Position numbers and translations under genes: made by a program. The notes below the pieces were generated by a model. That model saw only the letters and a program-made list of their open reading frames with translations, was not told the DNA's origin and did not search any database. Positions 17,777-51,738 of a DNA stretch of 64,000 nt are shown here, in pieces; the stretch's first letter is position 1; each line of letters starts with the position of its first letter. Source of the DNA: Crocinitomicaceae bacterium (GTDB lineage Bacteria > Bacteroidota > Bacteroidia > Flavobacteriales_D > Parvicellaceae); contig PBNK01000013.1 in NCBI GenBank assembly GCA_002723085.1, positions 62,001 through 126,000 on the forward strand. Direction: 5' to 3'.

Positions 17777-20700
17777 ATGAAAAAAATTTACCTGAGAATA
17801 TTAATTATTAATCTTATTATATATTGTTTTAATTCACCAGCTATTTCTCAAACTGTTTACGAATCTTATCAAGACGGTGTAGTGGTTTTTCAATTAAAAA
17901 AGAATTCTTTTTTAAGTGTTAAATCTAAAAATAGATCAATTAATGTAGACGATGTGGCTTTTGTAAGAAACTTAAAAGACTTTTATAACATAAAGTCATT
18001 GACTCAACTTCACCCTAACCATAAAAACTTTAACCTTTCTAGAACTTTTCAAATTAATTTCACTAAAATTAAATTAGTTGATCAACTCATTGAAAATTTA
18101 TCGTCTGTTTCTGATATAGAGTATGCTGAAAAAAAAGAATTACACAAAAGTTTTCTAACACCAAATGACCCTGGATATACAAATTCAACTAGTAATGGGC
18201 AATGGGCACTTTTTAAAATAAATGCATCTCAAGCATGGGATTTATCAACCGGTAACTCCAATGTAGTTGTTGCTGTAACTGATAATGCAATAAATGTAAA
18301 TCACCCTGATTTAGTCAATAAAATGCTTACTGGTTATGACGCAGTGGATCAAGATAACGACCCTACGGGATGTGGGTCAAATGACGGATTTCATGGTTCT
18401 CATGTTTCGGGAATTGTTGGAGCAGAAACCAATAATAATTCTGGAATTGCATCTATTGGTTATGACGTTAGCATTCTTCCCGTAAAAATCGGGAATTGTA
18501 GTGGCTCTCTAGTTGCTGGATATGAAGGCATTATTTGGGCTGCTGATAATGGAGCTGATGTAATAAACATGTCTTGGGGAGGTTCTGGTTATAGCAATTA
18601 TGGACAGAATGTTTGTGATTATGCTTCTAACGCTGGAAGCATATTGGTTGCCGCAGCTGGTAATGACAATGTTAGCTCTATTTTTTATCCTGCTGGATAC
18701 AATAATGTTATTTCCGTAGCTTCTACTACAACAAATGATGCAAAATCAAGTTTTTCTAATTATGGTTCTTGGATTGATATCTCAGCGCCTGGATCTAGCA
18801 TTTTAAGTTGCAACGCTTCAACAGGATATCAAGTTACTCAGGGAACATCTATGGCATCTCCTTTAGTTGCTGGGCTAATGGGACTTATGAAATCTTACGC
18901 TCCAAATGCTTCCAATCAAGATTTGATAAATTGTTTGTATTCAAGCGCTACAAATATTGATGGTGCAAATTCAAGTTATGTTAATCAATTAGGTGCTGGA
19001 AGAATTGATGCCTATCAAGCTTTAGTTTGTTTAAACGCCTTTTCATATGCTTTAGACGCAGCTATTACTGATGTAAATTCTCCTTCTAATAGTATTTGTG
19101 GAACTACCATTTCTCCTGAAGTTACATTACGAAATTTTGGAAGCACAACCTTGACCAGTGTTGATATTGTCTATCAAGCTGGTAACAATGCTTCACAAAC
19201 ATTTAATTGGTCTGGAAGTTTAGCATCTGGGCAATCTGTTTCCGTTACTCTTCCTTCTCAAACTTTTGGGGCAGGTAGTTACTCATTTACTGCATCAACA
19301 AATAATCCAAATGGAGGTACAGATCAAAACGCTTCAAATGATCAAGAAACATCGAACTTCACTATTGTGCCTAATGGAGACAATCTTAACGTATCGATAA
19401 CAACTGATTGCTATGGAGATGAAATTACTTGGCTAATCCAAGACGCTAGTGGAAATACTTTAATAAGTGGAGGTCCATACACTCAAAATTCCACAAATCA
19501 AACTTACAACACACCTGTATGTTTAACGCCTGGATGTTATGACTTTTTTATAAATGACACATATGGTGATGGAATGCATGGTAGCCAATGGAATAATTGT
19601 TCAGTCGATGGAGATTATAATATTCAAAATTCGAACGGGACAAATTTAGTTCAAATGACTGCGCCTAATGCCGATTTTGGCAATGGAACTTCTCACAATT
19701 TTTGTGTTGTGAACCCTAACATAACAAATGATGCAAGTTTAGAATCGGTTTCAAGTCCAAATGGACCAACATGTAGTAACTCAGTTAGTCCAATTATTAC
19801 ATTGGCTAACTATGGAAGTCAAAATCTTTCTTCTTTAGATATAAATTATGGTTTTAACGGAAGTGCTATTCAAACATTTAACTGGACTGGTAATTTAAGT
19901 TCTGGACAAACAACTAATGTTACTTTACCAAATTTAACAATTACAGGTAATCCTCAATCTTTTATGGTCTACACGACAAGTCCAAATGGTAGTTCAGATC
20001 AAAATACCTCAAACGATACCATAACAAATCAAGTAATTTACTTTCCAAATAGTTTAACTCTTCCTTTTTTAGAAGATTTTGAAACAAACTCATTTTCAAC
20101 AAATTCTTGGTTAGTTGAAAACCCAGATAACAGCATTACTTGGGATATTGTAACTAGTTCTGGAACAACCCCTGGAAATAAATCTGCTAAACTCAACTTT
20201 TACCAATATACTCAACTAGGGCAAAGAGATAGGCTAATAAGTTCTCCGATTAATTTTAATGGCTACACTAGTTTGGATTTATCTTTTGAACATGCTTATA
20301 GAAGATTTGATCAAAACAGTACCGACTCATTAATCGTATCAATTTCTACTGATTGCGGTCAAAGTTTTGTAAGATTACTTGAACTTGGAGAAAATGGAAC
20401 AGGAAGTTTTGCAACGGCATATACAAACACCAATGATTTTACTCCATCTCAATCTAGCGATTGGTGTATGGGATCTGTTGGAGCCAGCTGCTTTTCTGTA
20501 AACCTTGATAATTACATCGGTAACTCAAGTGTTATTATAAAATTTGAAGGATATAATGCCGGAACAAACGGGAATAATCTATTTATTGATAATATTAACA
20601 TCAACGGTAATCCAAGTTTAATACCTCCAACTTCAGACTTTAACAGCTCTAGCACTAACTTATGTGTTGGTGACATTGTTAATTTCACAGATCTTTCAAC

Positions 20701-24897: not shown

Positions 24898-26283
24898 TTG
24901 AAACACGTAATTAACATAACATCAATAAATAATATAGTTTTCATTTTTGGATTATTGTTTTCTTTATCTCTGACAGCAAACGATAATTCAAATGCATTTT
25001 TCATAAAAAATAATGGTCAATTTAATAAAAATGTAGAATATAAACTTACTGTAAATGCGGGTGAAATTTTCTTTGAAAGAAATAAAATAACATTTAATTT
25101 ATTTCAAAAAGACCATTTAGATGATATTAAACATTTAAAAATAAGTAATAAAAAAGAATTAAAAGGGCATGCTTATCAAATAAATTTTATCAATTCCCTA
25201 TTAAGCAATAAAAGTCCATATGGACTAAAAAAGCACAGCGCTTATTCTAATTACTTTTTGGGTAATGATACGTCTAAATGGCGATCTCATGTTCCTTTAT
25301 TTGAACAATTGCACTATGAAAATCTATACCAAGGAATAGATTTAAAATATTATGAAAAAAATGGCAAATTAAAATATGACTTTATAATACAACCTAATGC
25401 AGATCCATCAGCAATTAAAATGTCCTATAACGGATTGGATTCTATTTATAAAATAAGAGGAAACCTAATCCTAAAAAATTCATTAGGAAATGTTATTGAG
25501 CAAAAACCCTATGCTTATCAAATTAAAAACGGAAAAAAAATTGAAGTTCCTTGTTCATTCCTTATTAAAGGAAGTAATGTTAGTTTTATTTTCCCTAAAG
25601 GTTATAATAAAAAATTACCCTTAACAATTGATCCAGTATTAATATTTTCTACATATTCTGGGTCAACAGCTAACAATTGGGGCCAAACAGCTACATATGA
25701 CAACGATGGAAATCTATATGCAGGAAGCATTGCTTTTGCTCTTGGCTACCCAACTACATTAGGTCCTTTCCAGGCTTTTTATCTTGGGGGTCCAACAAGC
25801 AGTTGGGGATCAGACATTTGTATTTCTAAATTCAACAGTACAGGAACTAATTTAATTTACAGCACCTATTTAGGTGGAACAGGAAATGAAAACCCACATA
25901 GTTTAGTCGTTAACAACAATGATGAATTATTAGTTTTTGGCAGCACTGGATCTGGTGATTTTCCAACTACTATAGGATGCTATGACAATACATTTAATGG
26001 AGGCAATTCTTGGGCCTTTCTAGGAATAATTGATTACTCAAATGGAATTGATGCTTTTGTTACAAAATTTTCGAGTTCTGGAAATAGTCTTGTAGGATCA
26101 ACATATATTGGGGGCTCTGGAAATGACGGAATAAATGTAACTGGTCTAGTAGCTAATTATGCCGATGAATATCGTGGAGAAATAATAATTGATAGTACAG
26201 GAAATTGCTGGGTAGCCACATCAACTACATCTACAGATTTTCCTTTAATAAATCCTGTACAAAATAATAACGGAGGAAATTAA
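24898..26283 (+). CDS. N-terminal fragment of the split SBBP-propeller adhesin
   Basis: 461 residues beginning with a signal peptide (residues 1-27, ending SLSLTAN) and an N-terminal domain starting FFIKNNGQF, the usual opening of Bacteroidota proteins that carry SBBP propellers. The LTIDPVLIFSTYSGS block then starts the propeller, with repeat units such as LIYSTYLGGTGNE and STYIGGSGNDG. The protein stops in mid-propeller at NNNGGN. The start is TTG at 24898: an in-frame TAA lies at 24889, the signal peptide begins immediately after, and the next Met is far inside, so no ATG start is available. Confidence 0.65.
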   Translation: MKHVINITSINNIVFIFGLLFSLSLTANDNSNAFFIKNNGQFNKNVEYKLTVNAGEIFFERNKITFNLFQKDHLDDIKHLKISNKKELKGHAYQINFINSLLSNKSPYGLKKHSAYSNYFLGNDTSKWRSHVPLFEQLHYENLYQGIDLKYYEKNGKLKYDFIIQPNADPSAIKMSYNGLDSIYKIRGNLILKNSLGNVIEQKPYAYQIKNGKKIEVPCSFLIKGSNVSFIFPKGYNKKLPLTIDPVLIFSTYSGSTANNWGQTATYDNDGNLYAGSIAFALGYPTTLGPFQAFYLGGPTSSWGSDICISKFNSTGTNLIYSTYLGGTGNENPHSLVVNNNDELLVFGSTGSGDFPTTIGCYDNTFNGGNSWAFLGIIDYSNGIDAFVTKFSSSGNSLVGSTYIGGSGNDGINVTGLVANYADEYRGEIIIDSTGNCWVATSTTSTDFPLINPVQNNNGGN

Positions 26284-26286
26284 GAT

Positions 26287-37217: not shown

Positions 37218-37910
37218 ATGAATAATAAAATAAAAATTTTACTTGTTGAAGATGATCAAAATCTTGGTTCAATTTCCTCAGACTATTTAAATGCCAAAGG
37301 CTTTGAATGCATATGGGAAACTAATGGTGAAGCAGGATATCAAAGGTTTTTGAAAGATAAATTTGATGTGTTAATATTTGATGTAATGATGCCAATTAAA
37401 GATGGTTTTTCACTAGCTAAAGATGTAAGGGGAGTAGATAAAAAAACACCTATTTTATTTTTAACCGCAAAATCAATGAAAGAAGACACATTAAAAGGTT
37501 TTGAGTTAGGAGCTGATGATTATGTAACAAAACCTTTTAATATGGAGGAACTTATAGCTAGAATAAAAGCCATAGTTAATAGAACTAAAGAAAATATTAA
37601 TCACTTTGATGACATTTCTATTGGCTCTTTTTTATTTAATAGTAAAACACAAATACTAAAATCAAAGGATAAATCTATAAAACTCACTACTAAAGAAAGT
37701 GAATTATTAATCTTATTATGCAAAAATAAAAATGACATCCTTGAAAGAAATTTTGCTTTAAAAGCTGTATGGGGAGACGACAATTATTTCAACGGTAGAA
37801 GTATGGATGTATACATTGCCAAATTAAGAAAGTACTTAAAAGAAGAAACCAACATCCAGATTATAAATGTACACGGGAGGGGGTTTAAACTTTTAGAAGA
37901 AAAAGCTTAA
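37218..37910 (+). CDS. OmpR-family response regulator (RprY-like)
   Basis: The DNA-binding partner of the upstream kinase, 230 residues. The receiver domain (1 to about 120) has the acidic pair in LVEDDQN, phosphoacceptor D55 in IFDVMMP, the switch Thr in FLTAK and K105 in VTKPF. The C-terminal winged-helix domain (about 130-228) ends with the VHGRGFKLL wing. The receiver closely resembles what I remember of RprY from Bacteroides (ADDY.TKPF.MEEL), hence the tentative name. Targets cannot be inferred here. Its stop is interlocked with that of the convergent SDR gene. Confidence 0.94.
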   Translation: MNNKIKILLVEDDQNLGSISSDYLNAKGFECIWETNGEAGYQRFLKDKFDVLIFDVMMPIKDGFSLAKDVRGVDKKTPILFLTAKSMKEDTLKGFELGADDYVTKPFNMEELIARIKAIVNRTKENINHFDDISIGSFLFNSKTQILKSKDKSIKLTTKESELLILLCKNKNDILERNFALKAVWGDDNYFNGRSMDVYIAKLRKYLKEETNIQIINVHGRGFKLLEEKA

Positions 37911-38710
37911 AGAGATTTAGTTCTTCCACCGTCAACAGGTAGATTTATACCGTTGATGTAGCTAGCAGCAGGAGAGGCTAAAAAAGCAATAGCAGAAGCA
38001 ACTTCATGAGGTTCAGCAACCCTTAACATTGGCACTTCATTAGCCATTGCAATAGCGATATCTTTAGCAGTTTTTCCTGTTTTATTTGCTTTTGAATCTA
38101 TTATTGATTGAAGTCTACCAGTGCTGGTAGCTCCAGGCAATACATTATTAACAGTTATGTTGTCCTTACCCAATTCATTAGCAAGCGTTTTTCCCCAACT
38201 AGCTACTGCTCCTCTTATGGTATTTGAAACCCCTAACCCATTTAAAGGTTGTTTTACTGAAGTTGAAATCACATTAATAATTCTACCATAACCAGTAGAT
38301 TTCATTTTTGGCAATATAGCTTGAAGAATCTCATGATAAGAAATTAAATGAAGATTCATGGCAGAAATAAATTCCTTTGAATTGGCATCAACAATCTGTC
38401 CACCAGGAGGACCTCCAGTATTATTAATTACAATATGAATGGGATTGCTTTTAGATATGTAATCAGAAACCGTTTCTTTTACTTGGTTTGGATTTGAGAA
38501 ATCAGCAACTATAAAAGAATGATTTTGATTTTCTTTTTGAGGCAACTCTTTAAGTTTTGTTATTAGTTTCTGTTTATTTCTTGCCAAAAGAATAACATTA
38601 CAACCTAACGATGCTAGTTCTATTGCAGTCGCCCAACCTATTCCATCAGTTCCTCCACCAACAAGAGCATTTTTATCTGTTAAATCTAAATTCATTTTTA
38701 TTTTAATCAA
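37907..38710 (-). CDS. SDR-family oxidoreductase lacking the canonical YxxxK
   Basis: A Rossmann-fold short-chain dehydrogenase/reductase-like protein of 267 residues. The NAD(P) loop reads GGGTDGIG, NNTGG stands for the NNAG motif, and a Ser is at 149 (ISTS). Where the catalytic Tyr and Lys should be, the sequence reads V161-S-N-T-I165, so both residues are replaced. I recall an SDR subfamily with SNT at this place, annotated as 3-oxoacyl-ACP reductase; the true reaction is open. The second ATG (38695, MNLDLTDKNALV) may be the real start, as families usually begin there. It is convergent with the response regulator gene. Confidence 0.85.
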   Translation of the reverse strand: MIKIKMNLDLTDKNALVGGGTDGIGWATAIELASLGCNVILLARNKQKLITKLKELPQKENQNHSFIVADFSNPNQVKETVSDYISKSNPIHIVINNTGGPPGGQIVDANSKEFISAMNLHLISYHEILQAILPKMKSTGYGRIINVISTSVKQPLNGLGVSNTIRGAVASWGKTLANELGKDNITVNNVLPGATSTGRLQSIIDSKANKTGKTAKDIAIAMANEVPMLRVAEPHEVASAIAFLASPAASYINGINLPVDGGRTKSL

Positions 38711-38861: not shown

Positions 38862-41800
38862 ATGAAAAAATTAATTACTTTATTATTAACATTCATGGGT
38901 TTGACATACGCTAATGCCCAGTGTAATCATACCTTTAGAATGGCTGATTCTTATGGAGACGGGTGGAACGGAAGTACCGTTGACGTCACTGTAAATGGAA
39001 TTACAGTTCTTTCTGCTCAGGAACCAGTTTCTGGAGATCCCGCTGAGGACGTATTTTTTACTGCTTCTACTGGTGATGCTATTGCTCTTTCTAACTGGAC
39101 AACTGGTTCATGGACTTCCGAAGTTTCTTGGGAGATTCTTGATGGTGCTGGAGCTGTAATTGCATCTGGCGTTCATAATGACAGTACTGGCACCGTTGGT
39201 AATTGTCCTGCTTGTAACCCTCCAAATACATTAGCAGTAGCAAACGTTACTACTACAACTGCTGACTTTAGCTGGGTTGCTGGTGGAACTGAAACTGCTT
39301 GGAACGTTGAGTACGGTGCTGCAGGGTTCACTCAAGGTTCTGGAACTACTGTTCCAGTTACAGCTGCTTCTTACGCAATGACAGGATTAACAGCTAATAC
39401 AGCTTATGACGTATACGTTCAGGCAGATTGTGGTGCCGCGCAAAGTGTTTTTGCTGGTCCTCTATCTTTCACAACTCCATGTGCCACTGTTTCTTCTCCT
39501 TTTGATGAAGGATTTGAAAATGCTGGTGCTTTACCAGCTTGTTGGTCATTAGGTGGTGGTGAAAACTGGTTATTTAACACTTCTGGACCAAATCACGTTG
39601 GTAATGGGGGTACCCTTACAGGATCTACAACTACTGGCAACTACTATGCTGTAGTAGATGCTTCTGGTTATTCTGGAGCAGGTGGAAGTGCCACATTAAC
39701 TACTCCTAACATTGATGTTTCTACATTAGCTTCAGCTCAATTATCTTTCTTCTTAATTAGTGATGAAGAGGGAACCGGATACAGTTCTACTTTAACTGTT
39801 ACTTGTAATGGTGATACTGTTGGATCATATACTGGTAATACTCCTGGTTGGGAACAAAAATTTATTGACCTAAGTGCATATACAGGAACGGTTCAAATTA
39901 CATTTGCTTTTTCTGAACAATCAACTGCTAGTGCATACTTTGACGATATCGCTATTGATGATGTATCTGTTGGTGAAGCACCTTCATGTGCACAACCTTC
40001 AGGACTTGCAACTGCGAACTTGACTGATGTTTCTGTTGATTTAAGTTGGACAGCTGGTGGTTCTGAAACTGCTTGGAACATCGAATATGGTGCTGCTGGA
40101 TTCACCCAAGGTTCTGGAACTATTGTTGCTGCAACTTCCACAACTTATTCATTTACTGGATTAACGCCCAGTACATCATATGACATGTATGTTCAATCTG
40201 ATTGCGGTGCATCAGGAACAAGCGCTTGGGTTGGCCCAATTTCGGCTACCACTAACCCATCAGCTGGAACTTGTGGATATTTTACTGTTGAATTAATTGA
40301 CACTTATGGTGATGGATGGAACGGAAACTTTCTAGAAATTGTAATCAACGGTGCCGTTTTTGACTCGCTAACTATTGTTAGTGGTGCTGGTCCAGAATCA
40401 ACATTAGTTCCTGTAAATATTGGAGACGTTGTTGATGCTAACTATTTAGGCTTAGGATCTTATCAAGGTGAAAATGTATTTAACATTTATGATCATAATG
40501 GAATTGTAATAGCTGCTGAAGCTGGAAGTGCTGCTGGACCACCTAACAGTGCTCTTGGATTAACTGCTTGTCCTTCATGTACAGCTCCAAATACACTTAC
40601 TGCTACTAACCTAACTACATCATCTGCTGATCTTGGATGGACAGCCGGTGGTTCTGAAACTGCTTGGAATATTGAATATGGTGTTACAGGATTTGCACAA
40701 GGTTCTGGGACTGTTGTTGCAGTAACGTCAAATCCATACACATTATCTGGTTTAACTGCTGCTACTGGTTATGATTACTACATTCAATCTGATTGTGGTG
40801 GTGGTGACACAAGTATTTATGTTGGTCCATACACATTTGGGACATTATGTAATGACGATGTTGCTCCTTATTTTGAGAACTTTGACACTGGTCTTTCAGT
40901 ATGTTGGTCTAATCCAGGTATCCCTACATTTGGTTGGACACTAAATAGTGGTGGTACTACATCTTCAACTACTGGTCCATCAGATGATATGACAGGTGGT
41001 GGAAATTACATGTATATAGAGACTTCGAGCCCTAGAGCTCCTGGTGATTCAGCATTCTTAATTTCTTCAAACATTGATATTAGTGCATTAAGTGCCCCAG
41101 AACTAAGGTTCTTTAGCCACATGTATGGTGCATCTATTGGTGAATTATCAATCCATATTGTTACCGCAGCTAATCCTACACCAACAATGATTTGGCAAAA
41201 ATTAGGTGATCAAGGTAACCAATGGGATGAAAGAACTGTTGATTTAAGTGCATACGCAGGTGGAACAGTTCAATTCATAATCTTAGGTGTTGTTGGAGAT
41301 AACGGTGCTGGTGTCCAATATTGGGGAGATGTTGCAATTGACAACTTCCAAGTTAGAGAAATGCCTGGTGATGACTTATCTTGCCTTGGACTTTCAACTA
41401 GTGCTGTAACTGGTTGTGACTTAACTGCAACTGAAACAGTTACAATTACTGTTTATAACAATGCACAAAACCCACAAAGCAACTTCCCTGTATCTTATGG
41501 GGTAAATGGTAGTACACCTACTGTTGAAACAGTTGCTGGTCCATTAAATGGAGGTGACACTGTTTCATACACATTTACACAAACTGTAGATATGAGTGCT
41601 GATGGCACATATGACATTGCAGGTGCCGTTAGTTTAGCAACAGATCAAGATACAACTAACAACGCAGCAAGTGTTTTAGTTGAAAACCAAGCTGCTGGTT
41701 CTGCTCCGACTACAATGGGTGACTCTATTTGTAATGGAGATACAGCAATGGTATCAGCATCTTCAACTGGTGCAATTACATGGTACGATGCTATGACAGG

Positions 41801-42737
41801 TGGTAATATGTTAGGAACTGGTTCTTCTTTAAGTGTTAGTCCTTCAACAACTACTTCATATTATGCAGAAGCTTTAAGTGGAAGCTCTTATTTTGAGAAC
41901 TTTGATTCTTACAATAACGGTGATTTAATTGCTCAAGTATCTAACGATTGGGGAACGTGGTCTTCACCAACAGGTGGTGGAGCTGATGATGCTGAAGTTT
42001 CTAATGCACAAGCAGTAAGTGCTCCTAACTCGCTTAACATTAGTTACGCTAACGGAGACGACATTGTATTCCCATTTAGTACATTATTTAGTTCAGGTAC
42101 ATTTAAAGTTGAATTTGACATGTATTACACATCGTCTGCTTACTTTAATTTACAAGCTGATACTATAATAGGAAATGCATGGGCATTTAGCTGTTTCTTT
42201 GATACTGCTGGATTCTCTGTAGAAGGCCTAACTGGTGCTAATCCTGTTGGTTCTTGGTTCCACTTTGAATTAGTTGGAGATCTTAATGCTGGTGTTTGGG
42301 AAGTGTTAATTGATAGTGTTTCTGCTGGAACATTCAATAACACAAATCCTGTAGCTTCAGTTAACTTCTACGGAAATACTGGAAACGACTATTACATTGA
42401 TAATGTTTCTTACAGTTCACCAGCAATAGGATGCCCAGGCCCAAGAGCTGAAGCTTCTGTTGTTGTCAATGACTGTTCAAACATTAACGAAAATGGATAC
42501 AATGAATTTTCAGTATATCCTAACCCAAATAATGGATCATTCTTTATTGAAAACTTAGGAAACAGCACTGCTGCTACAGTTTCAGTAACAGATGTTCAAG
42601 GTAAAGTTGTATATACTACATCTTTCAACACTAATAACAGAATTAACATAAACATGAGCAACCTTGAAAAAGGAATGTACATGGTTACTGTGAAATCTGA
42701 AAATGGTGTTCAAATTGAAAACATTATTGTTCAATAG
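38862..42737 (+). CDS. Large secreted YGDGW/FN3/MAM-like protein, T9SS type A sorting domain
   Basis: A 1291-residue exported modular protein; I know of no assigned function. Order: signal peptide 1-20 (ANAQ); YGDGW domain (D29 to W35, to about 117); FN3 from C118; anchor-J/MAM-like (about 213-375); FN3 from C376; second YGDGW domain from C471 (D480-W486); FN3 from C573; second MAM-like (about 670-835); CARDB-like (about 838-945); Ig-like (about 948-1007); a LamG-like region (about 1010-1190); sorting domain from about 1210 (FSVYPNPNNG). Codons are much richer in GC than in neighbouring genes, suggesting strong expression. It has a candidate promoter and a clear terminator, so it is probably monocistronic. 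Confidence 0.88.
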   Translation: MKKLITLLLTFMGLTYANAQCNHTFRMADSYGDGWNGSTVDVTVNGITVLSAQEPVSGDPAEDVFFTASTGDAIALSNWTTGSWTSEVSWEILDGAGAVIASGVHNDSTGTVGNCPACNPPNTLAVANVTTTTADFSWVAGGTETAWNVEYGAAGFTQGSGTTVPVTAASYAMTGLTANTAYDVYVQADCGAAQSVFAGPLSFTTPCATVSSPFDEGFENAGALPACWSLGGGENWLFNTSGPNHVGNGGTLTGSTTTGNYYAVVDASGYSGAGGSATLTTPNIDVSTLASAQLSFFLISDEEGTGYSSTLTVTCNGDTVGSYTGNTPGWEQKFIDLSAYTGTVQITFAFSEQSTASAYFDDIAIDDVSVGEAPSCAQPSGLATANLTDVSVDLSWTAGGSETAWNIEYGAAGFTQGSGTIVAATSTTYSFTGLTPSTSYDMYVQSDCGASGTSAWVGPISATTNPSAGTCGYFTVELIDTYGDGWNGNFLEIVINGAVFDSLTIVSGAGPESTLVPVNIGDVVDANYLGLGSYQGENVFNIYDHNGIVIAAEAGSAAGPPNSALGLTACPSCTAPNTLTATNLTTSSADLGWTAGGSETAWNIEYGVTGFAQGSGTVVAVTSNPYTLSGLTAATGYDYYIQSDCGGGDTSIYVGPYTFGTLCNDDVAPYFENFDTGLSVCWSNPGIPTFGWTLNSGGTTSSTTGPSDDMTGGGNYMYIETSSPRAPGDSAFLISSNIDISALSAPELRFFSHMYGASIGELSIHIVTAANPTPTMIWQKLGDQGNQWDERTVDLSAYAGGTVQFIILGVVGDNGAGVQYWGDVAIDNFQVREMPGDDLSCLGLSTSAVTGCDLTATETVTITVYNNAQNPQSNFPVSYGVNGSTPTVETVAGPLNGGDTVSYTFTQTVDMSADGTYDIAGAVSLATDQDTTNNAASVLVENQAAGSAPTTMGDSICNGDTAMVSASSTGAITWYDAMTGGNMLGTGSSLSVSPSTTTSYYAEALSGSSYFENFDSYNNGDLIAQVSNDWGTWSSPTGGGADDAEVSNAQAVSAPNSLNISYANGDDIVFPFSTLFSSGTFKVEFDMYYTSSAYFNLQADTIIGNAWAFSCFFDTAGFSVEGLTGANPVGSWFHFELVGDLNAGVWEVLIDSVSAGTFNNTNPVASVNFYGNTGNDYYIDNVSYSSPAIGCPGPRAEASVVVNDCSNINENGYNEFSVYPNPNNGSFFIENLGNSTAATVSVTDVQGKVVYTTSFNTNNRININMSNLEKGMYMVTVKSENGVQIENIIVQ

Positions 42738-42756
42738 AACATAATTTTATAACTGT

Positions 42757-42789
42757 AAAGGGGAGGCATTAAAGCCTCCCTTTTTTTTT
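42757..42789 (+). terminator. Intrinsic terminator after the first YGDGW gene
   Basis: GGGAGGC (42761-42767), loop ATTAAA, GCCTCCC (42774-42780), followed by nine T (42781-42789). The stem can extend with AAAG (42757-42760) against TTTT. It starts 19 bases after the stop at 42737. This is the only textbook rho-independent terminator I found in the window. Confidence 0.92.
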
Positions 42790-42861
42790 GAAAAATGTTT
42801 TTTATATAATATAAAATGATAAAAAAATGTTTTAGAAATCAAAATTTTATAGTAATTTGAC

Positions 42862-42889
42862 TGGGTAATTATTCTATAATCAATACCCA
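42862..42889 (+). other. Hairpin abutting the start codon of the second YGDGW gene
   Basis: TGGGTA (42862-42867) pairs perfectly with TACCCA (42884-42889), with an inner ATT/AAT 3-bp pairing around a CTAT loop. The 3' arm ends on the base before ATG 42890, so the folded leader could block initiation. There is no T-run, so it is not a terminator. Confidence 0.35.
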
Positions 42890-45800
42890 ATGAAAAATCT
42901 TTTTTTTACTATATTTTTATCTTTATTTTTAATTTCAGCTCAATCTCAATGCGACTATACCATTAACATGCAAGATAGTTATGGAGATGGTTGGAACGGC
43001 GCTAGTGTTGATGCAACAGTTAATGGAATTTCTGCTGGAAGCTTTACTTTCACCACAGGATCATTTAGTGCGGGAACTTTACCAACCTACACTGGTGATG
43101 TTGTTCAATTTTATTTTACTTCAGGCACATTTGACAATGAAGTATCATTTGATATAATAGATCCTTCTGGACAAACAATTGGTTCTTATGTTCCAAATCC
43201 AACTGCACCATTTCATCAGGTAGGACTTTTTTTAACAGACACATCAACATCATCATGTGCTGTGCCTAATTGCTTACCTCCAAATACACTTTCTACATTA
43301 AATTTAACAGGTATATCAGCTGATTTAACCTGGGTTCCTGGTCAAGCAAATCAAACAGCTTGGAATGTTGAATGGGGACCATTAGGTTTTGCACAAGGTA
43401 CTGGGAATACAGGAAATACAACATCTCCGAGTTATTCGATTTCAGGACTTTCTCCTTTAACTTCATATCAATTTTATGTGGAAGGCGATTGCGGGGGAGG
43501 AAGCATAAGTTCATGGGCAGGACCTTATACTTTTACAACAACTTGTGTTGCGCTTATTCCTCCTCAAACAGAAGACTTTTCTGCTGGCTTCCCTCCTTCT
43601 GCTTGTTGGGATCAAGCCAATGATGGAGATCCTGGAACTGGCCCACTTATGATAGGTACAAGTTCATGGACAACTGACGGATTTGGAAATAACACTACAA
43701 CTGGAGCGGTAAAAATAAACATGTATACAACTGGGAAAAGCGATTGGGTTTTATCTCCTCAATATGATATAAGTACTGGAGGTCCATTCCAAGTTGAATT
43801 TGACTTTGGGGTATTTGCCTGGAATCAAACTACTCCAGGAAACCTGGGGTCTGACGATCGTGTTGAAATTCTAGCATCAACAGATGGTGGAGCAACATGG
43901 ATTGGACTTAAAAACTTTAATAGTTCTTATAATACTGCAAATAATGGAAATCATGAAATAGTTTCATTATCAACTATTTCAGGAACAACTGTTCAATTTG
44001 GATTTTGGGCTTCTGAAGGAAGTATTGATGATCCTGAAGATAACGACATCATGATTGATAATTTTGCTGTTGTACCAGTTCCTAACTGTCCTCAACCTTT
44101 AAATTTAAATGCTTTTAACATTTCATCTAGCTCTGCAGACTTAACTTGGACACCTGGTGGTACAGAAACGTCTTGGTTGCTTTATTTGGTTCCTAATGGA
44201 GGAAATTATTCAACTGTTTCACCTACAGTAGTAAGTAACGATACAGTAACTGTAAACAGCTTAAGTCCAAATGCGTATTATGAATATTATGTACAAGCAC
44301 TTTGTTCAACAGATAGTAGTTTTGTTTCTGGGCCATACAGCTTTACTGTTTTGTGTAGTGTAAGCGGAGTGCCTTATTTTGACAATGTTGAAGGACATAC
44401 TCCAACAACTACTTTAGGGCTTTCAAATTGTTGGAATGCCTATGGCTCTGGATTCGATTGGAACATTGATAATTTAGGTTCTACACCGTCAACTAATACT
44501 GGTCCAAGCGGAGCATACAGTGGAACAAATTATTTTTATGTTGAGGCTTCTGCTGGAGCAATTGGTGCTACTGCATCGCTTGAATCTCCATTAATTGATA
44601 TTTCATCATTATCCACTCCACAATTAGATTTTTATTATCACATGTATGGTGCGACTATGGGAAATCTATTTATTGAAGTTAATGATGGAACTGGGTGGGT
44701 TACTGTAGATAGCATTATTGGACAACAACAATTAGCTGACACAGACCCTTGGTTGAATAGAATAGTTCCGCTTAATTCATTTATTGGAGACACCATTCAA
44801 ATTAAATTTACTGCAATTAGAGGCAGCTCATTTACTAGTGACATTTCACTTGATGATATTAGAGTTGGAGAAGCACCTACTTGTCCTCAACCTCTGGGTC
44901 TAAACATTTATAATATAGGAGCTACAAGTGCTGATTTTAGCTGGATTCCTGGAGGAAACGAAACCTCTTGGAATGTTTATGTTGTTCCATCTGGAAATCC
45001 AATAACTGGAGTAACTCCAACAGTATCATCTAATGACTCAATAAGCATTACTGGTTTAAGTCCAAATAGTTCTTATGATTTTTATGTGGAAGCTATATGT
45101 AGCAGTGCAAATAGTTACATATCTGGCCCTGTAAGTGCAATTATGTTATGTAGTGTTAGTGGAACACCATTTTTTGATGATGTTGAAGCTCACACTCCTA
45201 CAACTTCACTTGGTTTATCAAACTGCTGGAATGCATATGGAACTGGTTTTGATTGGAATATAGATGCATTGGGGTCTACTCCATCTTTAAACACTGGGCC
45301 GACTGGCGCATTTAGTGGAACAAATTATTTTTACACTGAAGCATCTTCAGGAACTGCTGGAGCTATCGCATCTCTTGAGTCTCCATTAATTGATTTGTCT
45401 AATTTAAATGTCCCTCAGATAAGTTTTTACTATCACATGTTTGGGGCAACCATGGGAAATTTAGCTATTCAAGTAAATAATGGTTCTGGATGGGTTACAG
45501 TGGATAGCATTTCTGGTCAACAACAATCATCAGATAGTGATCCATGGCTTAATCGTATAATTCCAATATCATCCTATGCTAATGATACTATACAAATTCG
45601 TTTTACTGGTTATAAAGGAACCTCTTTCACAAGCGATATATGTGTTGACGACATTAGTGTAGGAGAAGCTCCTTCTTGTCCTCAACCAAGTTTACTTAAT
45701 GTTTTAAACATTACAGCAAATAGTGCTGATTTAACTTGGACAGCTAACGGATCTGAGACTTCTTGGAATTTATTTTTAGTTCCTTTTGGATCATCTATAA

Positions 45801-47770
45801 GTACTGTAACGCCTCAAGTTGTTACAAATGACACGGTAAATATAAACACCCTTTCTTCTGATTTTAGTTATTCTTTTTATGTGCAAGCTATATGTGGAGC
45901 TGGGGATAGTAGCGCAGTTTCTGGACCATTTAGTTTTGTAACACCTTGTTCATCAATTGCAGCACCATATTTTGAAAGTTTTGATTCAACATCAATAGCT
46001 AGATGTTGGCAAATTGCAACAACTCAAGGAAGTGGATGGGTTTTTAGTGGCAATCCTGGCTATGCTGCTGCTGGTGCTGGTGACCACACAGGAAATGGTG
46101 GGTCTTTTGCTTGGATAGATTTTTCATCTCCTGTAGATATAGGTGCCATGCTAATTAGTCCTGAAATTGATGCTTCAACATTAATTAGTCCAGTTTTAGA
46201 GTTTTTCTTTTACTCTCAAAATACAAATAATACTACATTAAATGAATTGTTTGTTGAATATTGGGATGGCAGTGGATTTTCTATCATGGATACCATTCAA
46301 GAAAACAATACTGCTTGGAAAAAATTTACTTATAATTTATCAAATGCTACTTATGGAAATAATATGATTAAAATAAGATTTAGAGGGGAAGCAAGTACTG
46401 GGGCATCTCCATTCTATAATGATTTGTTATTAGATGATTTTTCCATAAAAGAAGCACCAATGAACGATATTGGAACTGTCTCAGGAACTGTTGACTCTCC
46501 TTTTGTCGGATGCGATTTAGATAGCTCGAAAGTAACAATAGATATATTTAACTATGGATTTTCTCCTCAAGTAGGTTTTGATGTACAATATACTGTGAAT
46601 TCTATTCCAATAATTGAAACCATTACTGACACATTATATCCTAATGACTCCATGTCGTATGATTTTAATGCTTCATTAGATTTGAGCGTTGATGGAACTT
46701 ATATAGTTGATTTCAAAACCAATTTAACTAATGATGTTGATACAACTAATGATTTTTATGGAACATTTACTTTTGAAAACCTTCCTGCACCAAATGGTCC
46801 AATAGGATTTAACGATACCATTTGCTTAAACTCTGGTGATACACTAATGCTTACAGCAAATAGCCCTGATGGTACTGTTAGTTGGTACGATGCTCAATCC
46901 GGGGGGATACTTTTAGCAAGTGGAGATACCTTATATTCAAATGCAAATAGCACCACTACTTTTTATGCTTCTGTTAGTAATTCTTTAAATGATTCATTAG
47001 AAACAACAAATGTTGGCGGGAATGGTTATCAAGGAAATGTATTTAATATTACAAATACAACCGGAAATCCATTAACTATTACAGGTTTTGGACAAGGTGG
47101 AACATATAATACTGCAAATGTAGTTATGGAGGTATGGATGTATGAAGGCGATTATACAACGGTTATTAACAGCTCTGCTGGTTGGGTACAAGTTGGTAGT
47201 GATACCGTTACTTTAATATCAGGCATAGCAAGCGGTTATGTAGGAGTTTCTGGAGCTGTAATACCAACAGGTGCAACCTATGGATTTAGAGTTGGAGCAG
47301 TTTCATCAAATGTTGCCTACACAAACGGAACAGGAACTCCAGGGGTTTCTCCTTGGGCATCAAATTCTGATTTAACAGTTACAGAAGGACATGGCGGAGC
47401 TTATCCATATTATGCAAATAATAACCCTCGAAATTGGAATGGCGTAGTTCATTATTTATCGGAAGGTTGTTCAGGAGTGACACCTGTTATTGGAGTTGTT
47501 GAAGATTGTAGTAACCTAATTGAACTTGGGTTGGTTGGAATAAAAATATATCCTAATCCAAATAATGGGAATTTTACAATTGAAAACAACAGTGAATCTG
47601 AACTAATATCCGTAAAAGTAACTGACATGAATGGCAAATTAGTTTATAGTTCAAATATTAATAATGATAAAATAATTAATGTAAATCTTGAAACTCTAAA
47701 TAGAGGAATTTATCTAGTTTCAATTGTTTCTGAAAAAGGAATTCAGAACAAAAACATTATTATTCATTAG
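42890..47770 (+). CDS. Giant secreted YGDGW/FN3/MAM-like protein, T9SS type A sorting domain
   Basis: A 1626-residue exported protein from the same parts list as its upstream neighbour. Signal peptide 1-20; one YGDGW domain (D29-W35); FN3 from C128; MAM-like (about 225-398); then FN3 plus MAM-like from 400, the same pair again from 665, and a third FN3 from 930 with a more diverged MAM-like domain; CARDB-like (about 1195-1300); Ig-like; an unassigned beta-rich region with aromatic residues (about 1365-1525); sorting domain (IKIYPNPNNG to the end). The two central FN3-MAM units are each exactly 795 bases. Codons are AT-rich as in most of the window. No function is known to me; adhesion or matrix building is inference. 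Confidence 0.87.
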   Translation: MKNLFFTIFLSLFLISAQSQCDYTINMQDSYGDGWNGASVDATVNGISAGSFTFTTGSFSAGTLPTYTGDVVQFYFTSGTFDNEVSFDIIDPSGQTIGSYVPNPTAPFHQVGLFLTDTSTSSCAVPNCLPPNTLSTLNLTGISADLTWVPGQANQTAWNVEWGPLGFAQGTGNTGNTTSPSYSISGLSPLTSYQFYVEGDCGGGSISSWAGPYTFTTTCVALIPPQTEDFSAGFPPSACWDQANDGDPGTGPLMIGTSSWTTDGFGNNTTTGAVKINMYTTGKSDWVLSPQYDISTGGPFQVEFDFGVFAWNQTTPGNLGSDDRVEILASTDGGATWIGLKNFNSSYNTANNGNHEIVSLSTISGTTVQFGFWASEGSIDDPEDNDIMIDNFAVVPVPNCPQPLNLNAFNISSSSADLTWTPGGTETSWLLYLVPNGGNYSTVSPTVVSNDTVTVNSLSPNAYYEYYVQALCSTDSSFVSGPYSFTVLCSVSGVPYFDNVEGHTPTTTLGLSNCWNAYGSGFDWNIDNLGSTPSTNTGPSGAYSGTNYFYVEASAGAIGATASLESPLIDISSLSTPQLDFYYHMYGATMGNLFIEVNDGTGWVTVDSIIGQQQLADTDPWLNRIVPLNSFIGDTIQIKFTAIRGSSFTSDISLDDIRVGEAPTCPQPLGLNIYNIGATSADFSWIPGGNETSWNVYVVPSGNPITGVTPTVSSNDSISITGLSPNSSYDFYVEAICSSANSYISGPVSAIMLCSVSGTPFFDDVEAHTPTTSLGLSNCWNAYGTGFDWNIDALGSTPSLNTGPTGAFSGTNYFYTEASSGTAGAIASLESPLIDLSNLNVPQISFYYHMFGATMGNLAIQVNNGSGWVTVDSISGQQQSSDSDPWLNRIIPISSYANDTIQIRFTGYKGTSFTSDICVDDISVGEAPSCPQPSLLNVLNITANSADLTWTANGSETSWNLFLVPFGSSISTVTPQVVTNDTVNINTLSSDFSYSFYVQAICGAGDSSAVSGPFSFVTPCSSIAAPYFESFDSTSIARCWQIATTQGSGWVFSGNPGYAAAGAGDHTGNGGSFAWIDFSSPVDIGAMLISPEIDASTLISPVLEFFFYSQNTNNTTLNELFVEYWDGSGFSIMDTIQENNTAWKKFTYNLSNATYGNNMIKIRFRGEASTGASPFYNDLLLDDFSIKEAPMNDIGTVSGTVDSPFVGCDLDSSKVTIDIFNYGFSPQVGFDVQYTVNSIPIIETITDTLYPNDSMSYDFNASLDLSVDGTYIVDFKTNLTNDVDTTNDFYGTFTFENLPAPNGPIGFNDTICLNSGDTLMLTANSPDGTVSWYDAQSGGILLASGDTLYSNANSTTTFYASVSNSLNDSLETTNVGGNGYQGNVFNITNTTGNPLTITGFGQGGTYNTANVVMEVWMYEGDYTTVINSSAGWVQVGSDTVTLISGIASGYVGVSGAVIPTGATYGFRVGAVSSNVAYTNGTGTPGVSPWASNSDLTVTEGHGGAYPYYANNNPRNWNGVVHYLSEGCSGVTPVIGVVEDCSNLIELGLVGIKIYPNPNNGNFTIENNSESELISVKVTDMNGKLVYSSNINNDKIINVNLETLNRGIYLVSIVSEKGIQNKNIIIH
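44087..45676 (+). repeat. Tandem duplication of an FN3 + MAM-like module, 2 x 795 bases
   Basis: Unit 1 runs 44087-44881 (residues 400-664) and unit 2 44882-45676 (665-929); both open with TGTCCTCAACC and are exactly 265 codons long with no net insertion or deletion. Shared protein blocks include CPQP at the start, LGLSNCWNAYG, FDWNID, SGTNYFY and DPWLNRI. A third copy of the opening (CPQP at 45677) is followed by a different MAM-like domain. Equal length but many substitutions point to an in-frame duplication that has since diverged. Confidence 0.92.
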
Positions 47771-47844
47771 AATTATATTTTTCTGATTTTAGTTTGGTTT
47801 TCTTGTAAAAAATCTGAGAAGAAACAAATGTTTGTATTTATTAA

Positions 47845-49638
47845 ATGAGAATTCTAATATATATAGTAATGTTAGTTGGAGTTTCATTTTCTGGTAAAAC
47901 TCAATGTCATTATGTATTAGACATGAATGATAGCTGGGGGGACGGATGGAATGGAGCAAGATTAGATGTCACCATGAATGGCGTTTTTGTTGGAAGCTTC
48001 GAATGTTTTGGCAGTTCAACTATTGATTCTGTATATTCATTTACAGGATCTCAAATGGATTTCACCTTTTATTCAGGTACTTATGATAACGAAATAACTT
48101 TTAGTATTGAGGACCCTCAAGGAAACGTCTTATATAATGGTTCTGCTCCAAGCAATCTGGATAATATTTTACATACTTCTAATTCCTCTTGTCCACCTTC
48201 AAGTTCATGTGTTAATCCTATTTCTTTAAACGCTTATAATATTACTTTAAATTCAGCAGATATTGGATGGTCTCCAGGAGGCTTAGATAGCGTATGGAAT
48301 TTAGAATGGGGATTAAGTGGATTTTTACAAGGAAATGGGAACAACTTAAATAGTTTGAATTCAACATCTGTAACCTTGAATGGATTAAACTCATTTACAT
48401 CTTACGACTTTTACGTTCAGTCTGATTGTGATACAAATGGATTAAGCATTTGGTCTGGGCCACACACTTTTACTACTAGTGCAAGTTCTGGGACATGTGG
48501 TTTTTTTCAAATTGAATTAAATGACACATATGGTGATGGATGGGATTTAGCAAGTTTAGATATAGAAATTAATGGAAATATAATTCAATCCATCACATTA
48601 CTTAATGGTTTTGGACCAGATGCATACTCTTTTCCTGTGGATTCTGGAGATGTAATCCATTTACTTTATAACCCAGGTGATTATCCAGAAGAAAACTGGT
48701 ATGAGGTTTTTGATCATAATGGCACTTCAATTTATTTTCAATTTTCTTCAGGGAACAATGGACCACCAAGTACCTACGGGGTAAAAGCATGTCCTAATTG
48801 TTTAAAACCTAGTAATTTAAGCGCTAATAACATAAGTTCAAATTCTGCCGATTTACAGTGGAATACCTCAATTTCTGGAAACTTAAGTAATATAGAATGG
48901 GGGAATTCTGGTTTTACACTTGGTTCGGGGACTTTTGTTGGCAACATCACTAGTTATTTACTTACTAATTTAAATTCAAATACAAACTACGAATTTTATG
49001 TTCAAGAAATTTGTAGCCCCTCAGACCTAAGCTCATGGGAAGGGCCATTTTCATTTAAAACTTTACCCAATCCTGGTTCATGTGGGATGTTTGAAATTGT
49101 TTTAACCGATACTTATGGCGATGGATGGAATGGTGGATTTATCAACATAATAATAAATAATATAAACTATTCTTCAATAACCATGAGTACCGGATTTGGA
49201 CCTGAAACAATACTATTTCCTGTGGATTCTGGAGATGTTGTAGACCTTCTTTACAGTGAAGGAGATTGGCCGGAAGAAAATGCATATGAAGTATACGACA
49301 ATAACAATTTATTAATCGCTTCAGAAGCTGGTTCTGTGAATACTGGTCCTAACAGTACATATGGATTAAAATCATGTCCTGACTATTCAAACATTATAAA
49401 AACACCTTTTGATGGAATTAAAATTTTCCCAAACCCGAGTAACAAAATCATAAATATTAATACAAATTCTAAATTACAAAGAGTTACCTTATCAAATTTA
49501 TTAGGAGAAGTTATTTATGATTCAAAAACAATGTCTAAAAACAATGAAATAGATGTTTCTAATTTTCCTCCAAATGTTTATATACTAAAACTTTACAATG
49601 GGCATGAGTACTTTTTCAAAAAAATAATTATTGAGTAA
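47845..49638 (+). CDS. Secreted protein with three YGDGW domains and two FN3 domains, T9SS type A
   Basis: A 597-residue exported protein alternating YGDGW and FN3 domains: signal peptide 1-20; YGDGW 1 (D29, here DSWGDGW); FN3 from about 129 (CVNPISLN); YGDGW 2 (D230); FN3 (CLKPSNLS, about 320); YGDGW 3 (D422); then a type A sorting domain (IKIFPNPSN to the end). It lacks the MAM-like, CARDB and Ig-like modules of the two larger genes. The first domain is close to that of the next gene (FTFYSGTYDNEITFSI against FTFYSGSWDNEITFTI), so these two are a tandem pair. Its stop overlaps the next gene's TTG start by 8 bases. Confidence 0.87.
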   Translation: MRILIYIVMLVGVSFSGKTQCHYVLDMNDSWGDGWNGARLDVTMNGVFVGSFECFGSSTIDSVYSFTGSQMDFTFYSGTYDNEITFSIEDPQGNVLYNGSAPSNLDNILHTSNSSCPPSSSCVNPISLNAYNITLNSADIGWSPGGLDSVWNLEWGLSGFLQGNGNNLNSLNSTSVTLNGLNSFTSYDFYVQSDCDTNGLSIWSGPHTFTTSASSGTCGFFQIELNDTYGDGWDLASLDIEINGNIIQSITLLNGFGPDAYSFPVDSGDVIHLLYNPGDYPEENWYEVFDHNGTSIYFQFSSGNNGPPSTYGVKACPNCLKPSNLSANNISSNSADLQWNTSISGNLSNIEWGNSGFTLGSGTFVGNITSYLLTNLNSNTNYEFYVQEICSPSDLSSWEGPFSFKTLPNPGSCGMFEIVLTDTYGDGWNGGFINIIINNINYSSITMSTGFGPETILFPVDSGDVVDLLYSEGDWPEENAYEVYDNNNLLIASEAGSVNTGPNSTYGLKSCPDYSNIIKTPFDGIKIFPNPSNKIININTNSKLQRVTLSNLLGEVIYDSKTMSKNNEIDVSNFPPNVYILKLYNGHEYFFKKIIIE

Positions 49639-51100
49639 AAATTACATTTTGAATTATAATATTTACAATATCATTCTTTTTATAAAGTTTTTATTAATAG
49701 GCAACTTTTACTTTGGACAATGTCATTATATAGCTACTATGTATGATAGTTATGGTGACGGTTGGAACGGGGCTTACTTAGAAGTTAAAAGAAATGGTGC
49801 TTTTGTCAAAAACTTACAGTGTTTTGCCAGTTTTTATGTAGACTCTATATATTCTCAAACTGGTGATAATATAGAATTTACTTTTTATTCTGGAAGTTGG
49901 GACAATGAAATCACATTTACTATTAAAGATCCACAGGGGAATGTTCTAACTAGCGGACCTGCTCCAAATAATTTAGATAATTTAGTTCATTTATCTAACT
50001 CTTTTTGCGCCCCTTCAGCTCCATGCACACAGCCAAATGGATTAGACACATTAAACATCACAAGTAATTCTGCAGATATAATTTGGGTGCCAGGAGGGAA
50101 TGAATCAAAATGGAATGTTCAATATGGATCAAATGGTTTTCTTTTGGGTAATGGAACTATTATTAATGGGGTAAACAACCCAACTTTACAAGTTACAGGA
50201 TTATCTCAAAGTAACTTATATGATTTTTATGTCCAAGCAAATTGTGATTCTAATTACAATGTTAGTTCATGGGTTGGCCCTTTTACGTTTGAAACAAAAT
50301 GCTCTATTGGAAGTTGTGGGGTATATAGTTTAAAATTGTACGATAGTTATGGTGATGGTTGGGGTGATGGCTATATTCAAGTTAAAATTAATGGAATTAC
50401 CCTAAGGAATTTCACTCTAGATAATGGTTCTGGACCCGAAACGCTTTTATTTGGAGTAGATTCAAGTGATGTTATTGATTTAATTTACTATGGATCTAGT
50501 TCAGGCGACATATATCGTTTATATGATGAAAATGGATTATTAAAGGTATTTCAACAAGGCACCCCAAGCAGTTCTCCGTCAAGTACTTTTGGGATTTTAG
50601 CTTGTCAAGAAACCATAACTCCCTCATGTGGAGAACTTATAATTGAAATGTATGACGACTTTTGTGATGGATGGGCTGTTTATGGTGCATCCATTGATGT
50701 AAATATTAACAATGTAAACTCTACAAATATTTTATTGCCATTAGGTTGTGGTCCTCAGTCCGTTAACATATCTATAGATTCAGGTGATATTGTTGATCTT
50801 GTTTATTCTACATTTTATCAAAACGAACACTCATATATAGTATACGATCAAAATGGAGTTCAAATTGCATATGAAACTTCTTTTGATAATGGAAATAATG
50901 GCCCTAAAAGTACTTATGGAATTCAATTGTGCCCTATATCAACGGGATACGTTAAAGATGATTTTGTTCGAAAGAAAAAATTAATCGGTATTTATAATAT
51001 TTTAGGGGAAAAGATAAATGAAAAAACCAATAAAAATCAGATTTTAATCTATTTATATGATGATGGTAGTTATTTGAAGAAGTTTAATCCTGCTTTTTAA
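49631..51100 (+). CDS. Secreted protein with three YGDGW domains and a non-standard C-terminal signal
   Basis: A 489-residue exported protein: hydrophobic signal (about 12-30, ending NFYFGQ); YGDGW 1 (D39); one FN3 domain (CTQPNGLD); YGDGW 2 (D238); a relaxed third copy DDFCDGW (D342-W348), where Tyr-Gly is replaced by Phe-Cys. Instead of the YPNPN sorting domain it ends in KLIGIYNILGEKIN...ILIYLYDDGSYLKKF, which resembles a variant T9SS-type tail I have seen in other Bacteroidota proteins. Start is TTG at 49631: in-frame TAA at 49625, no ATG before the first domain. The TTG lies within the preceding gene, so translation may be coupled. Its stop interlocks with the metallo-hydrolase gene. Confidence 0.82.
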   Translation: MSKNYILNYNIYNIILFIKFLLIGNFYFGQCHYIATMYDSYGDGWNGAYLEVKRNGAFVKNLQCFASFYVDSIYSQTGDNIEFTFYSGSWDNEITFTIKDPQGNVLTSGPAPNNLDNLVHLSNSFCAPSAPCTQPNGLDTLNITSNSADIIWVPGGNESKWNVQYGSNGFLLGNGTIINGVNNPTLQVTGLSQSNLYDFYVQANCDSNYNVSSWVGPFTFETKCSIGSCGVYSLKLYDSYGDGWGDGYIQVKINGITLRNFTLDNGSGPETLLFGVDSSDVIDLIYYGSSSGDIYRLYDENGLLKVFQQGTPSSSPSSTFGILACQETITPSCGELIIEMYDDFCDGWAVYGASIDVNINNVNSTNILLPLGCGPQSVNISIDSGDIVDLVYSTFYQNEHSYIVYDQNGVQIAYETSFDNGNNGPKSTYGIQLCPISTGYVKDDFVRKKKLIGIYNILGEKINEKTNKNQILIYLYDDGSYLKKFNPAF

Positions 51101-51738
51101 CGTAAAAAAGGATTTGTGTTAACTTCACTACCAATAGTTGTTTCAGGACCGTGGCCACAGTAAACAACTGTTGAAGATGGCAGTGTAAATAACTCTTTCC
51201 TAATGCTGGACAATAATGTTGCATGATTTCCACCCGGAAGATCTGTTCTTCCAATGCTTTGATAAAACAAACAATCGCCATTGACAACAAATTGTTCTTC
51301 TTTAGCAAAGAAAATAACATGACCCGGAGCGTGTCCTGGCACAAAACGTATTTCTAAATGACTATTTCCAAACGAAAAGCCATCATTTAAAGAATATAAT
51401 TTATACGATTGAGGCAACGAATGTCTTATTGGAATTCCGTACATAGAACATACTTTTTCAAAGGAATTATAAGTAATAATATCGTCTTTGTGTATCCAGA
51501 TATTAACTTTGAATAAAGATGCAAAATAACCTGATGAAAAACAGTGATCTAAATGGCTATGAGTATGTAAAATTGCATTTATTTGAATGTTATTATTTTT
51601 AATAAATTCCAACACCTCTTTTTCCTCTTCAACAGTATAACATCCAGGGTCGATTAAAACTCCTTCTCCATTATCATCCCACAGAATATATGTGTTTTCT
51701 TGGAATGGATTAACAGTAAATTTTTGTATTTGTATCAT
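51097..51738 (-). CDS. Metallo-beta-lactamase-fold hydrolase (glyoxalase II-like)
   Basis: A cytoplasmic MBL-fold metallo-hydrolase of 213 residues. The zinc motif is H60-S-H62-L-D64-H65, with the later His in PGHAPGH, the Asp in NGDCLF and the final His in YCGHG, so both metal sites are complete. Overall layout resembles the hydroxyacylglutathione hydrolase-like YcbL group, which lacks the C-terminal glutathione domain of true glyoxalase II; the substrate is therefore open. It stands alone on the minus strand, its stop interlocked with the last YGDGW gene. Confidence 0.9.
   Translation of the reverse strand: MIQIQKFTVNPFQENTYILWDDNGEGVLIDPGCYTVEEEKEVLEFIKNNNIQINAILHTHSHLDHCFSSGYFASLFKVNIWIHKDDIITYNSFEKVCSMYGIPIRHSLPQSYKLYSLNDGFSFGNSHLEIRFVPGHAPGHVIFFAKEEQFVVNGDCLFYQSIGRTDLPGGNHATLLSSIRKELFTLPSSTVVYCGHGPETTIGSEVNTNPFLR

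Follow-up and report, generated by a model that had tools for sequence, protein, structure and literature searches.

What domain is repeated along four neighbouring genes of a marine Crocinitomicaceae bacterium, how did these genes come to stand together, and what might their products do at the cell surface? In the window, that is, the whole 64,000-nucleotide stretch of DNA that was analysed, positions 38862-51100 hold four consecutive plus-strand ORFs with nine copies of a Cys-bounded domain of about 97 residues with the motif DxYGDGWNG (the YGDGW domain). The initial annotation read the four genes as a family of secreted proteins, expanded by tandem duplication and domain exchange. The features of the array are as follows, with the source of each assignment in brackets.

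38862..42737, plus strand: gene 1, 1291 aa; order signal peptide, YGDGW, FN3, MAM-like, FN3, YGDGW, FN3, MAM, Ig_7, T9SS type A sorting domain (ORF list, Pfam, local FN3/MAM/YGDGW models)
38922..39206, plus strand: YGDGW copy at D29 of gene 1, island-type clade (motif scan, tree, HMM)
40272..40571, plus strand: YGDGW copy at D480 of gene 1, internal-type clade, probably acquired by exchange (motif scan, tree, HMM)
42757..42784, plus strand: strong hairpin of intrinsic-terminator type after gene 1, 11 pairs and then a T run (consensus match only)
42890..47770, plus strand: gene 2, 1626 aa; order signal peptide, YGDGW, four FN3 alternating with MAM-like, Ig_7, T9SS type A sorting domain (ORF list, Pfam, local models)
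42950..43258, plus strand: YGDGW copy at D29 of gene 2 (motif scan, HMM)
47845..49638, plus strand: gene 3, 597 aa; order signal peptide, YGDGW, FN3, YGDGW, FN3, YGDGW, T9SS type A sorting domain (ORF list, Pfam, YGDGW model)
47905..48192, plus strand: YGDGW copy at D29 of gene 3, its domain D1 (motif scan, HMM, AlphaFold2)
48496..48792, plus strand: YGDGW copy at D227 of gene 3 (motif scan, HMM)
49081..49377, plus strand: YGDGW copy at D422 of gene 3, its domain D3 (motif scan, HMM, AlphaFold2)
49631..51100, plus strand: gene 4, 489 aa, TTG start; order signal peptide, YGDGW, FN3, YGDGW, relaxed YGDGW, short atypical tail (ORF list, Pfam)
49721..50008, plus strand: YGDGW copy at D39 of gene 4 (motif scan, tree, HMM)
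50315..50605, plus strand: YGDGW copy at D238 of gene 4, which lacks the Glu conserved at the putative metal site (motif scan, HMM)
50627..50932, plus strand: relaxed copy at D342 of gene 4 (DDFCDGW), counterpart of the last domain in the four-copy protein of relatives (motif scan, tree, HMM)

The recurrence of the domain was confirmed by an HMM built from 78 sequences, none of them from the window, which found all nine copies (whole-protein E values between 5e-76 and 4e-31, small database) and gave no hit in control proteins with reversed sequence; the copies are far beyond chance. The motif scan returned the annotated positions D29 and D480, D29, D29 and D422, and D39, D238 and the relaxed D342 in genes 1 to 4, while the copy placed at D230 of gene 3 in fact lies at D227. 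Among the accessory modules, Pfam agreed on FN3 in genes 1-4 (below the cut-off in gene 4) and on MAM and Ig_7 in genes 1 and 2, and CARDB, which had also been named, gave no match at E<=1. Gene 4 begins inside gene 3, with an overlap of 8 bases, and promoter-like matches did not rise above the level in shuffles.

The earlier view of these products as secreted surface proteins is borne out by their signal peptides and by the T9SS sorting domain (TIGR04183/PF18962), which is above the cut-off in genes 1-3; gene 4 gave E 0.68 and did not reach it. SprA, the T9SS translocon, is encoded in the same genome (2376 bits against a cut-off of 200). With a signal peptide, a modular ectodomain and a C-terminal sorting domain, the proteins resemble T9SS type A cargo with FN3/MAM modules, but they differ from it by the unnamed shared domain and by the short atypical tail of gene 4. 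This tail (KKLIGIYNILGEK...YLYDDGSYLKK) is closer to the short tail found in the 184-aa viral proteins described below than to a standard sorting domain, and it is possibly a variant secretion signal. Gene 1 is very acidic, with 122 Asp+Glu against 15 Lys+Arg. Elsewhere in the window (24898-28779), a CHU_C-type surface-protein gene is apparently interrupted by one in-frame TAA (26281-26283), with ORFs of 461 and 830 aa that share one frame, which may represent a pseudogene, an assembly error or a real arrangement.

Is the domain already known? A profile comparison with Pfam had been proposed as the check, and no family was matched; the search of Pfam-A, NCBIfam, PHROGs and the PDB sequences gave no convincing match, so that the domain would count as unnamed as far as these collections go. 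The strings YGDGW, YGDGWNG, DSYGDGWNG and SYGDGICC were not found in print in the open-access papers searched. PDB entry 4qrk was marginal for the first profile (E 0.0045), fell to 0.13 with the larger alignment and was rejected.

For scanning, the nine-copy alignment was too variable as a pattern and the three N-terminal copies were used instead. The genome of the window itself holds 12 copies. At E<=0.001 the ordinary form was found in 44 of 60 relatives and in 19 of 395 genomes sampled across the phylum, and a scan of a public genome collection gave 165 confirmed stretches. The best 80 of these 165 are almost all from Bacteroidota, the closest being Crocinitomicaceae-labelled and other Flavobacteriales MAGs. 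The host proteins are diverse: they include T9SS proteins with FN3, MAM, PKD, SprB, GEVED or CotH-kinase domains, many of which carry a single YGDGW domain at the N-terminus, and short lipoproteins. A 635-kb record of an uncultured jumbo phage (LR745206.1; L170, 5110-8730) also has a gene for a 1207-aa protein that combines Reelin-like, YGDGW and PKD domains with a T9SS sorting domain of the CHU_C type.

The genomic setting was then compared among relatives. The two genes that border the array are:

37907..38710, minus strand: SDR-type oxidoreductase, left border of the island (family name by reading, without a family search)
51097..51738, minus strand: MBL-fold hydrolase, right border of the island (family name by reading, without a family search)

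In related genomes the gene order is carboxylase, histidine kinase, response regulator, SDR, a variable block, MBL hydrolase and four further genes. One long YGDGW gene makes up the variable block in G021; G029 has two such genes there, and G012 has many ORFs. In G036, G016, G019 and G007 only parts of the island are seen, because the contigs or retrieved stretches stop inside it. Because the same flanking order encloses variable T9SS surface-protein genes in relatives, genes 1 and 2 belong, in this genome, to a T9SS-cargo island that is old, conserved and family-wide. The reading as a private tandem array is rejected, the island being common to related genomes, and an expansion private to one family is not supported either: genes 1-2 are part of this island, genes related to 3 and 4 are found at other genomic positions, and the domain occurs widely in Bacteroidota. 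These relatives of 3 and 4 are about 720 or 1042 aa long (L175, L178, L183, L184, L186). In G036 the relative of this 1042-aa multi-copy protein (L178, 7442-10432, minus strand) is broken by two in-frame stops, TAA and TAG.

The two processes put forward in the initial annotation fared better. In a tree of 60 domain copies, the opening YGDGW domains of genes 3 and 4 group with that of the four-copy protein of relatives (100/100), and D342 of gene 4 groups with the final domain in two of the relatives' proteins (100/99). The two copies of gene 1 fall into two different well-supported clades, D29 in the island clade (99/99) and D480 in the internal-domain clade (98/99). As far as short alignments with some long branches allow, the tree supports duplication for genes 3 and 4 and exchange for gene 1.

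A further copy had been described as a weaker one in the protease:

19391..19705, plus strand: circularly permuted YGDGW domain, residues 539-643 of a T9SS-tagged subtilase (17777-22912)

The motif is indeed present at D594, but the YGDGW domain there is circularly permuted and not degenerate. In this copy and in many others, the Glu-bearing half (GDEITW...) stands ahead of the DxYGDG half. A scan with half-profiles counted 227 pairs in the ordinary order and 15 in the reversed order. Reversed copies form in-register repeats in L061 and stand alone after the signal peptide in 184-aa viral proteins, and therefore they are not mere tail-then-head readings of neighbouring domains. When 29 distinct reversed copies were rotated at the junction, their mean score against the ordinary model rose from 25.3 to 32.6 bits and the coverage from 33 to 68 columns, with 23 of the 29 improved, a figure that is blurred by a few tail-to-head joins of ordinary domains in the set (L028, L144, L178, L181); random rotations left the mean at 25.3 bits. 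The junction is often C-LPDG-C, in which a four-residue linker joins the C-terminal Cys of the ordinary form to its N-terminal one, and it is C-LTPG-C in the protease copy. The Cys at both ends suggests that the termini lie side by side, which would fit ends that can be joined.

A reversed-form model, built without window sequences, matched protease residues 537-637 at 1e-17 and found matches in 53 of 390 genomes of the phylum, some of them partial matches to ordinary copies, which makes a comparison with the ordinary form (19 of 395) indicative only. What is new here is that the protease copy is a permutant with its halves reversed and that this permuted form is widespread in the phylum. Both forms occur together in a 2107-aa protein (L121, 7917-14237), which has ordinary copies around residues 29 and 136 and permuted ones in the region from about 700 to 1030. 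Similar secreted proteins of about 184 aa with one permuted domain are encoded on IMG/VR contigs (L159, L160, L163-L169), and they end in a short LGREV...SDG...RKVYI tail after the domain.

Predicted structures were used to look for distant relations. AlphaFold2 gave pLDDT values of 95.9 for D422 and 93.4 for D29 of gene 3, both modelled as eight-strand sandwiches with the same strands. Foldseek against the PDB returned nothing at E<=0.001 for either model. The most notable of the weak matches are Ca-dependent carbohydrate modules, first vCBM60 (probability 0.84-0.98, E 0.15-0.2, TMq 0.47-0.50); in the first search it had a probability of 0.93 and the highest TM-score among the matches listed (0.50), and in the second it had the highest probability among those listed (0.98), with CBM36 next (0.95). 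C2, TNF-like and lipase sandwiches were listed too. Of the viral models searched, four matched at E<=0.001, all from environmental viruses, one of them annotated with a secretion sorting domain. The D422 model also matches BFVD entries A0A5J6VM39 and A0A7D3UU47, giant-virus proteins (Megaviridae, Fadolivirus), and the domain may by these models occur in viruses of eukaryotes too.

Conservation points to a possible metal site. Among 205 distinct copies, D10, D14 and E66 are all kept in 178 and all changed in 12, several of the latter being orthologues of each other, and the remaining 15 show mixed states, some of these copies being truncated. Joint loss is the pattern expected of a shared metal site, and a calcium site at D10, D14 and E66 is plausible on this count. 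The scan patterns included DS[YW]GD and GWNGA, so that conservation there is partly ascertainment, while E66 is free of this bias.

The nearest families with a known Ca-dependent function were then considered. CBM60 and CBM36 are small beta sandwiches, as the YGDGW domain is predicted to be, and are the best-scoring relevant fold neighbours of both models, but the TM-score is only 0.4-0.5 and no significant sequence or profile relation was seen. The Pfam CBM60 family (PF16841) matched 4 of 87 members (best E 0.00099), and the one member inspected scored 17 bits against a gathering cut-off of 28.2. An hhalign comparison of A3 with the 2xfd sequence gave a probability of 3.1% over 19 columns, with low power as this is a single CBM60 sequence. 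Membership in CBM60 was rejected at the Pfam gathering cut-off and in the profile comparison alike. A search of 247 genomes of the phylum, and of plasmids, detected no CBM60, and no aromatic sugar-binding platform was identified in the YGDGW domain. According to the title of PDB entry 2xhh, CBM60 is linked to another Ca-dependent family by circular permutation. Lectin domains of the LecB/PA-IIL family and of EclA, which bind sugars through Ca2+ on a beta sandwich, also appeared among the weak fold matches, but with a TM-score of 0.42 or lower and no sequence relation found. The partner family of CBM60 in the permutation is CBM36. In the C-terminal lectin domain of EclA, sugar binding on a beta sandwich is Ca-mediated (PMC11875179).

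The lipoprotein hosts provide the functional context. In Flavobacteriaceae and one Saprospiraceae MAG, the YGDGW domain lies at the end of lipoproteins of about 300 aa, and among the short hosts a SusD match was found in the locus in 22 of 26 cases and a SusC match in 21 of 26. The lipoprotein gene is directly downstream of SusC/SusD, immediately after SusD in the order seen, and Pfam confirmed the TonB plug and SusD-like_2 in one locus. An arylsulfotransferase-like protein, FG-GAP/UnbV proteins and, on one side, fusA/rpsG are conserved neighbours. Because the fusA/rpsG flank is shared, most of these loci are one inherited orthologous locus and are not independent. The neighbours scanned included no glycoside hydrolase. 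Directly after SusC and SusD, the SusCD-linked YGDGW lipoproteins stand in the same place as the surface glycan-binding lipoproteins (SusE/SusF type) of such operons. They differ from the SusE/SusF type in that those scanned match no Pfam family and in their arylsulfotransferase-like and FG-GAP/UnbV neighbours; the window proteins, in contrast, are T9SS cargo and not SusCD partners.

The vCBM60/CBM36 fold matches, the joint loss of D10, D14 and E66 and the SusC/SusD-adjacent lipoproteins are the reasons for which we favour YGDGW as a Ca-dependent surface ligand-binding domain, probably for glycans, a reading to which we give an even chance. The products of the four genes have signal peptides and mostly T9SS tags; they are highly acidic surface proteins of several domains, whose shared unit would be a compact eight-strand beta sandwich with its ends probably stapled by a terminal disulfide. 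The two Asp of the DxYGDG loop and one distant Glu would most likely bind one Ca2+, and the domain would bind, in a Ca2+-dependent manner, most likely glycans or glycosylated particle surfaces, with the FN3, MAM and Ig-like modules as stalk and spacing. The genes lie in the conserved island, a place of duplication, fusion and exchange of T9SS cargo genes, and the proteins might serve in adhesion or capture; the adhesin role suggested initially is one reading among several.

The main rival takes YGDGW to be a Ca2+-rigidified structural spacer, like the extender domains of RTX adhesins, with binding carried out by the MAM and Ig-like domains only. Repeated copies alternating with FN3 would suit a spacer, as would the fact that no proven binding family is matched significantly in fold or sequence. 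A spacer makes little sense, however, for single terminal domains such as those at the N-terminus of T9SS proteins and at the C-terminus of the SusCD-linked lipoproteins, and we regard this explanation as rather unlikely.

Proteins or peptides could also be the ligand, for example other surface proteins or the substrates of the protease with the permuted copy. The domain does occur in a subtilase and beside MAM domains, and SusCD-type systems are also able to import peptides. But none of ten further hosts scanned is a peptidase and the closest Ca-dependent fold neighbours are sugar binders, which makes such a ligand improbable to us. A surface or biofilm matrix layer formed by self-association of YGDGW domains, suggested by the multiple copies per protein and the very acidic chains, is very improbable given the single-domain lipoproteins of other families.

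We are confident that these are T9SS surface proteins with an unnamed recurrent domain, in a conserved but variable island, shaped by duplication and exchange, and that a circularly permuted sister form exists. Ca2+ binding and Ca-dependent capture of ligands, most probably glycans, are likely but unproven. Only tentatively do we propose the broadest version, a new superfamily of Ca2+-dependent ligand-binding, probably glycan-binding, domains in Bacteroidota and some viruses, with two permuted forms, used in T9SS arrays and in a SusCD capture lipoprotein. If true, it would supply a function for numerous surface proteins of marine Flavobacteriales that are now labelled "hypothetical". Next to CBM36/CBM60, the domain would be the second small metal-site sandwich seen to have spread in two circularly permuted forms, and it would point to what marine Flavobacteriales hold or import at the cell surface.
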